DNA of 64,000 nt, from NCBI GenBank assembly GCA_002869535.1, contig PKUK01000008.1:178541-242540 (forward strand). Reading direction: 5' to 3'. A program made the translations under genes and the position numbers. The notes below the pieces were generated by a model. The model worked only from the letters and a program-made list of their open reading frames with translations. It was not told the DNA's origin and made no database searches. The stretch is from Arcobacter sp. GTDB lineage: Bacteria; Campylobacterota; Campylobacteria; Campylobacterales; Arcobacteraceae. This document shows positions 4,663 to 44,378 of this stretch, one piece after another. Position 1 is the first letter of the stretch; each line of letters starts with the position of its first letter.

Positions 4663-5249
4663 TCTCTTGAAGAGGTAAACCTCTCCGCTTTCTTACTTTT
4701 GTGTTGACGAAAAGTAAGCAAAAGCAACTACGGCTTCGGAGCCAAAGGTTCCCTCATTTATTATTTTTAATTTCTAGCTTGCGGAACTCCTAAAAAAGAG
4801 TGAGTTTATCACTCTTTTTTACTCAAACAAGTCCTCAGCTTTCTCCGAAATGAAAAATAAACATTCGGCTCCTGCAGATGTAGAAAGAAATCTCTTCCGT
4901 TGTTACTTCTTCTGTACAGTCTTTATATTAATTAAAGTAAGTAAAAGTTAGTAATCTAAACAAATCAAAATGCAAATGTCCTTATCCCACCTTTGGTTCC
5001 AACATTTGCAAAAGCCGAACGTTTATTTTTCTCTTTTCTAAACAAGATTGGCAACTGTTTGAGTGTTTAAAAGTTGCTAAACGCAATTTTTAATAAACGA
5101 GTTTTCTCAAAGAGAGTGCAAGCACAAGCCAAGCAGAAAAGATAAAAATAATAAGTGAGGGAACCTTTGGCTCCGAAGCCGTAGTTGCTTTTGCTTACTT
5201 TTCGTCAACACAAAAGTAAGAAAGCGGAGAGGTTTACCTCTTCAAGAGA
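4663..5249. repeat. 587-bp non-coding element with 94-bp perfect terminal inverted repeats (copy A)
   Basis: The left arm (4663-4756) and right arm (5156-5249) are exact reverse complements over 94 bp and continue inward with one mismatch to about 4771/5141. AATTC occurs directly outside both ends (4658-4662 and 5250-5254), as a target-site duplication would. The centre has no convincing gene. It holds a 12-bp hairpin with T run (4792-4820) and further complementary patches, so the whole unit could fold into one long imperfect hairpin. A diverged copy lies at 41401-41945. This explains the whole gap between the NTPase gene and the first ORF6N gene. It could be a MITE-like element, a structured RNA gene, or both. 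Confidence 0.85.
4792..4820. terminator. hairpin with T run inside element A
   Basis: A 12-bp perfect stem (AAAAAAGAGTGA / TCACTCTTTTTT) with a five-base loop looks like a bidirectional intrinsic terminator. Copy B has an equivalent hairpin at 41534-41554, so the structure is kept between copies. Confidence 0.55.
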
Positions 5250-5260
5250 AATTCTATTTT

Positions 5261-40974: not shown

Positions 40975-41325
40975 TTAAACTTTTGCTGCAATGAATATTA
41001 TCTCAACAAGTGTATTAGTACTTGCCATAGTTGCTTCTACACAAGCACGAGCGGGAGGATTTTCTTTAGATACCAAAGAATCCCAAACTTCATTAAAATC
41101 AGCAAAATCACGAGCTATATCTTTTACAAATATCTCAGCACGTAAAATGTTATCTTTATCACTACCAGCTTCAGCAAGTCTCTCTTCAGCCATAGCCAAC
41201 ACTCTTTGAGCCTGACCTTTGATATCTAGATCTTTATCATCAGATACTATACCAGCTAAATAAATAACTCCATTGTGCTCAACGATTCTACTCATTCTTT
41301 CATTTACTTGTTTTCTAATTATCAT
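40975..41325 (-). CDS. ridA: RidA-family enamine/imine deaminase
   Basis: The 116-residue trimer-forming fold has GVIYLAGIV and PPARACVEATMA with the conserved Arg that binds the substrate carboxylate, then LVEIIFIAAKV. RidA speeds hydrolysis of reactive imines from amino acid metabolism, as produced by DadA encoded downstream. This branch starts with RKQVNERMSRIV. Confidence 0.9.
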   Translation of the reverse strand: MIIRKQVNERMSRIVEHNGVIYLAGIVSDDKDLDIKGQAQRVLAMAEERLAEAGSDKDNILRAEIFVKDIARDFADFNEVWDSLVSKENPPARACVEATMASTNTLVEIIFIAAKV

Positions 41326-41400
41326 ATCAATCCCTTTTGAGTTTTATAGTTTTAGTATAACATTGTAAAGTTATATTTGAATGAAATTGTAAGATTTTTT

Positions 41401-41945
41401 CTCTTGAAGAACAAGTTCTTCGCTTTCTCACTTTTTAGTTGTAAAAAGTAAGACAAAAAGCAACCAGACGAGTTGATGAAGGCAAAGCTTCCCTACAGTT
41501 ATATATTTATTTTCTGCCCTGCAAAACTCACTAAAGAGTGCATTTAGCACTCTTCTTAACGTTCAAACAGTTTCGGGCATAACCGAAAATAAACATCTAA
41601 CTTCCGGCTTCATCAAAGTCTGGGAAGAATGAAAGTTCAAACTATCATTTGTAAAGTAGAACAAGAAAAAGATAAAAGACTAGACAAATCAAAAATGCAA
41701 ATGTCCTTATCCCACCTTTTATCTCCAACATCTACAGAAGCTGAGCGTTTGTTTTATCTTTTCGGAAAAGGCTTGCAACTGTTTGAACAGAACAAATATG
41801 CTAATAGCATATTTTTATGTGAGTTTTGCAAGACAGAAAAGAGAAAACAATAAGAGAAGAAACCCAAAGGGCTTCGCAGCCGTTGGTGGTTTTGCTTACT
41901 TTGTCCACACAAAGTAAGAGAAAGCGGAGACCTTTAGGTGTTCAA
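41401..41945. repeat. 545-bp non-coding element, diverged copy B
   Basis: The ends are imperfect inverted repeats (41401-41500 and 41850-41945; for example CGCTTTCT is paired in both arms, and TGCAAAACTCAC occurs in opposite orientation inside). The middle shares long near-identical stretches with element A, for instance CAAATGTCCTTATCCCACC (41698-41716, matching about 4973-4991) and CAACTGTTTGA. It has an equivalent internal hairpin (AAGAGTGC / GCACTCTT, 41534-41554). No convincing gene. It fills the gap between ridA and the coiled-coil membrane protein. It is more decayed than copy A. Confidence 0.75.
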
Positions 41946-41966: not shown

Positions 41967-43319
41967 TTATTTCTTAAATGATGAAATTATATCTGTAACA
42001 GTTACACTATTTTCATCTTTTATAATTCCATGATTTGTTTGTCTAAAAATACTTTCTATCATGATTTTTTTATCATTTTCTTCTAAGGTATTTCCTTCTT
42101 TCATTAATGCCAAATAAGTATTTATCATTGTAACTCTTTCTTTTGCATCAATAGATAAATGATAACTACTAAGAGCAATTTTCATCACTATTCTAATAAT
42201 CCAAATTGTTAATGAAATTAGTAAAAGCATAAAGGCATACTTAATTAAATCTATATTGAATAAACTATTACTCAATGTTTCGCTATCTTTTTGAACGTTT
42301 GGATTTGACACTTCAATTGTCTTAATTATTTCTGCTTTTGCTTCTAATGCAAAACCTGTATCAATTTCTAAAATACTAAATACTAGTATAAGAGAAGCAA
42401 TTATTGCAATGGATAAATATATTATATACCTTTTTGAATAAAAATTAATTTGGTCTTCCCAAAATTCTGTTGATGCATGAACTCTTAATTCACTCAAAAC
42501 TGTATCTTTTGCATTTTTGTAATCTTCTTCTAATGATGAAGCATTCTCATATAAATTTTTAACACTATCAAATAATTCTTTATTAGAATCTAATTTCTCT
42601 TCTAGCTCTGTAATTTTTCCTGTTAACTTTAACTTATCATCTTCTAATTTTCTTAGTCTTTCTCCTTCAGTTGAACTATTTTTAAAATTATTGATTAAAT
42701 CATTAACATCTAGTTCATTAAAAATTGTATTATCGATTATCTTTTCAATAATAATTGGCTCGTATGAGCCATATTGTGGTAGCATATCATGAAATGCAAT
42801 ATTAATAAATTTTTCTTTTGATACTGACATATCAGTTTTTTCTTCACCACCAATAAAAATAATTGCATTATTTTTACTTTTATAAACCTTAAAAGGCTTA
42901 TTCTTAGCCTTTGTTTGTAAAGTCAGATTTGATTCTTCAGAAGTCTCATTTAATAGTGAAATTAATTTATCATATCTTTTAGAAAATTCATCTTCCGATA
43001 TGTTAATAGTTTGGGTATCAGTGTATTTAGTAATAAAGTCATTCATAATATCTACTATATCAATTTTATAAGCAGATATATTTGTATTTGATGACAACAT
43101 ACTTTTTAATTTATTTAGTTTACTATACAGCTCATTAGCAAGGTCTGTATCAATATCACCTTTTTTAGCCTTATTAATTAAAGAGTTAATTGTATTTGAA
43201 AAATTTTCAATTAATATCTCATTTTTAATATATGTACTAACATATTCTAAAACAATATGATTTTTTAACTTTCCATCAATGTGATAAAGGGATTCCAAAA
43301 GGTTTGGATAAATTGGCAT
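41967..43319 (-). CDS. coiled-coil membrane protein (possible DUF6161 type)
   Basis: A 450-residue protein with an N-terminal soluble helical part (1-210), a coiled coil (about 215-275, TGKITELEEKLDSNKELFDSV), two membrane segments (about 302-320 and 365-385), and a conserved-looking C-terminus (SSYHLSIDAKERVTMINTYLALMKEG) that resembles the end of proteins annotated as DUF6161. No catalytic motif is seen. Its AT bias and its place directly beside element B suggest an accessory gene, perhaps acquired. A role in stress or phage defence is only a possibility. Confidence 0.65.
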   Translation of the reverse strand: MPIYPNLLESLYHIDGKLKNHIVLEYVSTYIKNEILIENFSNTINSLINKAKKGDIDTDLANELYSKLNKLKSMLSSNTNISAYKIDIVDIMNDFITKYTDTQTINISEDEFSKRYDKLISLLNETSEESNLTLQTKAKNKPFKVYKSKNNAIIFIGGEEKTDMSVSKEKFINIAFHDMLPQYGSYEPIIIEKIIDNTIFNELDVNDLINNFKNSSTEGERLRKLEDDKLKLTGKITELEEKLDSNKELFDSVKNLYENASSLEEDYKNAKDTVLSELRVHASTEFWEDQINFYSKRYIIYLSIAIIASLILVFSILEIDTGFALEAKAEIIKTIEVSNPNVQKDSETLSNSLFNIDLIKYAFMLLLISLTIWIIRIVMKIALSSYHLSIDAKERVTMINTYLALMKEGNTLEENDKKIMIESIFRQTNHGIIKDENSVTVTDIISSFKK

Positions 43320-43924: not shown

Positions 43925-43947
43925 TATATTTTCCTTTGGAAAATAAG

Positions 43948-44359
43948 TGAAAAATGAAAAGTGAAAAGTGAAAAATTATTTTGCATTGTTTTCCTTTGAA
44001 GTTTTTATACTACTTACAAGAATACTAATAAGTTCTTTTATTTCAGGCTGAATACTACCATACATTTTATCATTTATATATTCACTGTCCCTTAACAAAT
44101 CTATCCAATAATTAGTCTCATTTGCTTCTTTCAAAGCAATGTGTAATTTTGATATAAAATCAGGTTTTGATTGTGCAAATTCAGATTCAGAAATTAAAGC
44201 ACCAATAGCAGTACCACTTCTAAGAATTTGTTTTGACAAAATGGATTCTTTTTTCTCTTCTTGCAAATATTTAGTTAATTTGACTATGCGAATAGCAAAT
44301 TGATAAGATTTATCTTTCAAAATATTTTTCATTTTTCACTTTTCACTTTTCATTTTTCA
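43948..44359. repeat. cassette bounded by 29-bp perfect inverted repeats
   Basis: The 29-bp left arm (43948-43976) and right arm (44331-44359) are exact reverse complements built from TGAAAA/GTGAAAA units. They hold exactly the four-helix-bundle gene: the stop lies at the left arm and the start codon inside the right arm. This is a compact single-gene cassette, suggesting mobility. Confidence 0.8.
43976..44332 (-). CDS. four-helix-bundle protein (23S rRNA intervening-sequence/S23 type)
   Basis: The 118-residue all-helical basic protein (QFAIRIVKLTKYLQEEKKESILSKQILRSGTAIGALISESEFAQSKPDFISKLHIALKEANETNYWIDLL) belongs to the family often encoded in 23S rRNA intervening sequences and in diversity-generating retroelements. 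The start codon lies within the inverted repeat, whose GTGAAAA units may serve as its ribosome-binding site. It interrupts the murF-HIT interval. It is probably a mobile or selfish gene; activity unknown. Confidence 0.85.
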   Translation of the reverse strand: MKNILKDKSYQFAIRIVKLTKYLQEEKKESILSKQILRSGTAIGALISESEFAQSKPDFISKLHIALKEANETNYWIDLLRDSEYINDKMYGSIQPEIKELISILVSSIKTSKENNAK

Positions 44360-44378
44360 TTTTATTAAAGCCAAAAGC

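Follow-up and report, generated by a model that had tools for sequence, protein, structure and literature searches.

Correia/NEMIS, ERIC and RUP elements are palindromic, non-coding, intergenic sequences of bacteria which can alter the mRNAs of their neighbours. They are named as bacterial MITEs in the passages of Di Nocera et al. (2013, PMC3733652) used here, in which REP/BIME/REPIN sequences and the TIR repeats of TIRtrons are characterised as dispersed, non-coding, self-complementary sequences that often form inverted pairs and lie between unidirectional as well as convergent genes. Hairpin-forming intergenic repeats, in some of which inverted repeats flank a core, have been described in P. 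fluorescens, including R178/R200 (Silby et al. 2009, PMC2718517, in extract), and intrastrand triplex motifs, in which a pyrimidine run precedes a purine-pyrimidine hairpin, have been catalogued (Holder et al. 2015, PMC4666352, in extract).

In this study, we analyse an intergenic element, designated element B, within a stretch of 64,000 nt of Arcobacter sp. (the window), which contains a related element, A. We consider it probable, with moderate confidence, that B is a copy of a non-coding, non-autonomous palindromic family with terminator-like ends, which spread in the past and is now mainly inherited in place with swapping of its units. No description of this repeat family was found in openly licensed PMC papers.

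Architecture of the elements

In the elements, two units of about 230 nt each lie in inverted orientation around a core bearing CAAATGTCCTTATCCC (Table 1). From the outer end inward, a unit consists of the hairpins H1 (e.g. GAAGAGG-TAAA-CCTCTTC), H2 (with the form CTTACTTT-loop-AAAGTAAG and variants of it) and H3 and a long hairpin, P4, and right-type units run on into the core. A covariance model built from the core and the right P4, termed R1, matches both halves of many elements on opposite strands, and the full element is therefore an inverted pair of related units. Most full copies contain two units placed head-to-head around the core. Solo units of 234-283 bp are also present, and at one site, occupied by a full element in the congener G001, a second congener, G002, has a smaller form (about 290 bp) that contains both ends but only one P4.

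Element A, when folded, is a nearly perfect palindrome, its arms of 107 nt being 99% complementary. B is less palindromic than A; its folding gives a z of -7.7 against its own shuffles, none of 100 being as good. The original prediction, that both share one order of parts, is borne out, the order (outer arm, AGAGTG hairpin, core, inner hairpin, closing arm) being identical in A and B; the AGAGTG hairpin (41533-41555) is the tip of the left P4 in B. The sequence CAAATGTCCTTATCCCACC is found exactly at 41698-41716 in B and at 4973-4991 in A, with none expected from 100 shuffles of the window. B had been called the second copy of the element, and it is a real copy, but the two are far from the only ones: in the own genome (G000; 2.68 Mb, 12 contigs) the core occurs at 12 places with at most three mismatches, and the 45 blastn matches obtained with A as query, both strands counted, were resolved into 18 mapped element places. 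The plasmids searched gave no match to the element.

Among 21 core-bearing copies, the core is the most uniform segment (mean 0.96 vs 0.62-0.81 for segments of the left arm), a contrast that is partly built in because these copies were gathered via the core motif. Both the core and the P4 motif recur in other genera, and 12 two-unit copies lacking the core were mapped in congeners. Most likely, the core serves the element as a signal in cis. A coding reading of it was rejected: no Pfam family matches the 74-aa ORF that lies across the core, and indels of 1-2 nt behind the core between copies break the frame. Rfam 15 gave no matches at gathering score in the window or in five related loci, and the weak snoRNA/miRNA-type matches returned in E-value mode were discarded as chance.

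Some smaller sequences were also noticed. A word of 22-25 nt, TCTCAAAGAGAGTGCAAGCACAAG, lies at 5107-5128 of the window and in hairpins of L222, L234, L235, L080 and L088, and it is also found elsewhere in G000 (C4:152461, C7:133227), as though it were a small separate insertion. The H2 loop of L230, L233 and L236 (G001) contains a palindromic insertion, ACCTTTCAGGATTTAGTCACTTCGTTCCCGCAT, of about 35 nt, and a similar one is present in L238 (G002). Farther along the window, inverted AAGTGAAAAATGAAAAGTG repeats (43945-43981 and 44319-44362) surround a small ORF on the minus strand (43976-44332).

Table 1 Features of elements A and B and of the genes flanking B, in window coordinates
Feature	Position	Strand	Remarks
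Element A	4663..5250	+	Left-type unit and right half; outer 107 nt of right half repeat the left end in inverted orientation (99%)
RidA-like flanking gene (PF01042)	40975..41325	-	Marker of B's orthologous site in congeners
Element B	41400..41945 (about)	+ (core on +)	Inverted pair, left-type and right-type unit around asymmetric core
H1, left end hairpin GAAGAA-CAAG-TTCTTC	41406..41421	+	Followed by T-rich GCTTTCTCACTTTTT; terminator-like layout, inward-facing
H2, left hairpin CTCACTTTTT-AGTTGT-AAAAAGTAAG	41427..41452	+	
P4, left long hairpin	41505..41594	-	Reads CTGTTTGA..GAGTTTTGC on - strand
Core CAAATCAAAAATGCAAATGTCCTTATCCCACC	41685..41716	+	
Conserved inner strand CCAACATCTACAGAAGCTGAGCGTTT	41724..41754	+	
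P4, right long hairpin	41749..41850	+	ACTGTTTGA/GAGTT internal motif between covarying stems
H3, right	41859..41882	+	
H2, right hairpin CTTACTTT-GTCCACAC-AAAGTAAG	41895..41918	+	
H1, right end hairpin GAGACC-TTTA-GGTGTTC	41927..41943	-	Behind the stop codon of the gene at 41967-43319 (-), at a distance of about 20 nt
DUF6161 flanking gene (PF19658)	41967..43319	-	Not found at the corresponding place in G001

Compensatory changes in the hairpins

Compensatory base change, which had been named earlier as a check, is present in both H1 and P4. For H1 (54 ends, 52 of them distinct, from three genomes), 90.6% of 363 cells are paired; changes on both sides occur in 62 of the 363 cells vs a shuffled mean of 20.5, and the covariation score is 0.399 vs 0.090 for shuffled and at most 0.161 for slid versions, with none of 500 shuffles as high in either measure. 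Neither the "further pair types" nor the number of double-change pairs in H1 is in excess, the observed values being reached by 495 and 323 of the 500 shuffles, respectively. For P4, aligned in 27 copies that belong to several genera, double changes are seen in 10 of 16 pairs and amount to 43 of 430 cells vs a shuffled mean of 13.1; again no shuffle of 500 was as high, and the excess holds against slid versions as well. These significances are overstated because the copies are kin. The covariation shows that the strands pair, and the paired molecule could be RNA or single-stranded DNA.

The set of ends comprised 54 of 61, L230, L233 and L236 with their long H2 insertion having been left out by hand; the right ends of L201, L232 and L239, and also L246, were likewise left out of the 54-end set. 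The core alignment had 31 rows, minus L084 (misplaced) and L090, L092 and L082 (hairpin deleted or diverged).

Element B as a mosaic of unit types

The arms of B had been thought to be decayed relative to those of A. This is not what we find: both arms of B retain their own H1 and H2 hairpins, and they are unlike those of A because they belong to different unit types. The left half of B is nearest to L037 (identities of 56/60 in H3, 73/75 in P4 and 34/35 in the inner stem), whereas its segments compare with A at only 31/53, 33/54, 38/75 and 18/35. Four successive segments of the right half are nearest to L031, L043, L036 and L055 (31/31, 83/92, 41/43 and 53/55, respectively) vs 25/31, 64/92, 29/41 and 42/54 for A, the third of these being H3 (41/43 to L036 vs 29/41 to A). 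Judged from these sequence comparisons, B is a mosaic of intact units from other types and not a decayed A.

Orthologous sites and exchange of units

The site of B beside the RidA-like gene carries an element in both congeners (G001 and G002). In G001 this element consists of two left-type units without a core, and in G002 the contig stops within the element. Edge-to-edge matches between species were obtained for several other sites as well; several sites are shared by three species, and most are old. Solo units hold their place as well, e.g. with 97% identity and flanks of 91-95%, and one site is shared, with its flank, with another genus (L048, L090, L092; 87-89% over about 1.7 kb), the gene upstream of it being, by eye, presumably leuA.

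The contents of these sites follow another pattern. Of 52 half-elements, 48 are closer to a copy at another site, mostly in the same genome, than to their ortholog. In this count, which omits L206, L240, L244 and the solo units, the closest of many non-orthologous copies competes with one or two orthologs and has an advantage by number alone. It includes sites 204, 205, 209 and 210, where orthology is looser because of large insertions beside the element; when these are set aside and only the seven sites with edge-to-edge flanks are considered (A, B, 202, 203, 206, 208, 211), the figure is 32 of 34 halves. The differences in similarity are often large, i.e. 0.70-0.84 to the ortholog vs 0.91-0.99 to the copy at the other site. 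At site 206, the right half has been kept as an ortholog in two species (0.97). The element at site 203 is reversed in G001 (L219), and G000 has mostly left-right pairs with a core, G001 mostly left-left pairs without one.

Since halves at shared sites are nearer to copies elsewhere, the positions stay and the units are exchanged. This combination of fixed sites and shared content is concerted evolution, most simply caused by gene conversion; the alternative source of unit replacement is repeated insertion at one spot. A recombinant origin of L052 from A and L041 became less convincing because some 270 bp next to several elements recur between different sites. This repeated stretch was seen in the left flank of L202 and in the right flanks of L236, L232 and L239.

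Placement near genes and likeness to terminators

None of 49 elements mapped in three genomes is located inside an ORF, and 31 of the 49 lie in tail-head gaps. Gaps of at most 20 nt were found for 24 of 52 tail-facing vs 0 of 42 head-facing neighbours (p 3e-8, with ORFs defined by a simple length rule and orthologous copies at the same site counted separately). This preference for the tail side may merely reflect selection that removes insertions just ahead of genes. In core-bearing copies, the right end points toward a gene tail in 17 of the 20 with a mapped neighbour; counted by site and for tail-head sites only, the ratio is 8 vs 2.

The arrangement of H1 and, after it, the T-rich 5' strand of H2 is like that of an intrinsic terminator. 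A simple terminator scan flagged H1 at both ends of A and gave no flag for H1 of B, including the left one. One site has the element in G001 but not in G000 and G002; at the spot that H1 occupies in G001, the other two have a hairpin, GAAGRCC..GGTCTTC, with a T-rich tail. The upstream gene we take to be valS. In L097 (G030; about 1400-2000), units are situated, by eye, beside 5S-rRNA-like sequence, and near-identical matches in G030 suggest several rRNA operons, each with a unit.

Distribution

At an E-value of 0.01, R1 recognises 38 of 104 genomes of the family to which the window belongs (Arcobacteraceae), in 10 of 20 genera. At 0.001 it recognises 16 of 397 genomes of the phylum, two of which lie outside the family and contain solo units. 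In the phylum that includes Thalassotalea (Pseudomonadota), 5 of 200 genomes contain the exact sequence TTTGAGCGNAGCGAGTT, at 8 places in all. Among the pseudomonadotal loci, L146, L147/L151, L149 and L152 show a P4-like, an H2-like and an H1-like hairpin in the same order, and L147 and L149/L152 contain two inverted units; this is not the case for L145/L150 and L148. R1 does not recognise the pseudomonadotal loci (best relevant E above 1), so their likeness is one of architecture and not proven homology. It is doubtful, though conceivable, that these loci and the elements of Campylobacterota form one phylum-spanning class of terminator-capped palindromes with the order P4 (TTTGAG..GAGTT), H2, H1, which would keep fixed places behind genes and have its units replaced by a dedicated exchange in which the unit possibly passes through single-stranded DNA or RNA.

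Other candidates were dropped. An 18-base core pattern searched genome-wide yielded 10 stretches in unrelated taxa, about as many as expected by chance by our own estimate, and these were taken as chance in view of a best R1 score of 0.04. Core matches in G058 and G067 had no flanking similarity.

Origin and maintenance of the elements

The conservation of the interior had led to the proposal that it is selected for itself, not only for transposition. On this reading, the interior would be a structured RNA, or an RNA domain, under selection for a host function, and the arms its carriers. The uniformity of core and P4 motif and their recurrence in other genera, the constancy of the P4 internal motif between covarying stems and the predominance of right ends toward gene tails, as for a preferred transcription orientation, are in line with this. 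Covariation in the interior does stand; the end hairpins, however, covary too, the arms are intact, the uniform copies were picked by their core, the 12 coreless two-unit copies dispense with it, Rfam has no matching family, and the orientation shrinks to 8 vs 2 by site. The exchange of units, together with the element's own need for its cis signals, explains the pattern without selection for host function, and we regard the RNA interpretation as quite unlikely.

Two further explanations concern the mobilising enzyme. That the elements are TIR/REPIN-like and mobilised at present by a RAYT/TIRYT-type Y1 (HUH) transposase would fit their paired inverted hairpin units, their places behind ORFs and their dispersal, all of which agree with published REP/TIR repeats as far as the parts of PMC3733652 used here describe them. 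In G433, moreover, a RAYT-like Y1 transposase gene with a GGGGTCGGAGC motif near its start is directly preceded by a solo unit (L138, 1501-2499), and in G016 an element lies near a RAYT-like gene. Against this, of 31 Y1-gene loci scanned with R1 (30 found via PF01797, plus L138), only L181 and L138 match clearly, L138 having entered the set through R1 itself; Y1 genes, present in 36 of the 104 family genomes, occur in 18 of 38 with elements vs 18 of 66 without (p 0.054); the copy-rich G002 has none; and most element sites are old. Present mobilisation by such an enzyme is accordingly unlikely, and owing to this weak association we do not file the family under the RAYT-mobilised REPs, despite the like layout and placement. 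The sole Y1-transposase match in G000, L076 (C11:8244-8603), contains two TGA stops and is not located within the elements. A conventional MITE, the arms of which are recognised by a mobilising DDE transposase and the copies of which differ by plain divergence, would account for the long inverted ends and the missing coding capacity. Many copies, however, have end hairpins of different types, poorly acceptable to such an enzyme, and the ends are themselves hairpins; we hold this explanation to be very unlikely. Among the loci fetched, no transposase gene with the ends of the element was met, and in the aligned copies no consistent target duplication was seen by eye.

We favour the view that the family spread as a small mobile element using a trans-acting enzyme and is now mainly inherited in place. 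Because a joined-flank query recovered no clean empty site with target duplication, the case for mobility is made by the copy number, the discrete ends and the presence or absence of the element at one site. H1 and the T-rich 5' strand of H2 would act as an inward-facing intrinsic terminator; a repeat that settled behind a gene could replace the gene's own terminator and hence be tolerated. Recombination between copies, whether as gene conversion or as replacement recurring at one site, would swap units, and the difference between B and A would be such a swap and not decay. If this is correct, repeats dispersed over the chromosome retain their positions from species to species and yet share their content, forming a portable 3'-end module that is homogenised genome-wide, and concerted evolution of small repeats as well as the recruitment of mobile DNA as terminators become testable in one genus with orthologous sites. 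The points of interest are the terminator-like ends, the fixed sites with exchanged units and the possible reach beyond the phylum.

Comparison with known systems

The family is a genuine, structurally elaborate member of the extragenic palindromic repeats. Like the REP and TIR repeats treated in the cited passages of PMC3733652, it is dispersed between genes, its copies mostly following ORFs closely (at most 20 nt in 24 of 52 tail gaps). REPs are short palindromes of 20-40 bp with a GTAG or CGTC tag at one end; in size the units here are different, having about 230 nt and four hairpins and forming a pair of 550-590 nt around a core. The tail-tail bias stated for the P. fluorescens repeats in the extract of PMC2718517 is not shared, the elements being mostly tail-head (31 of 49), and host and size differ as well, the comparison being one of descriptions. 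The H2 of the GC-rich look-alikes L149 and L152 is similar in sequence to the triplex motifs in the extract of PMC4666352, whereas H2 in the window has only a short run. From Correia/NEMIS, ERIC and RUP, finally, the elements differ by their greater length, their nested hairpin modules and the occurrence of ends of differing type in one copy.
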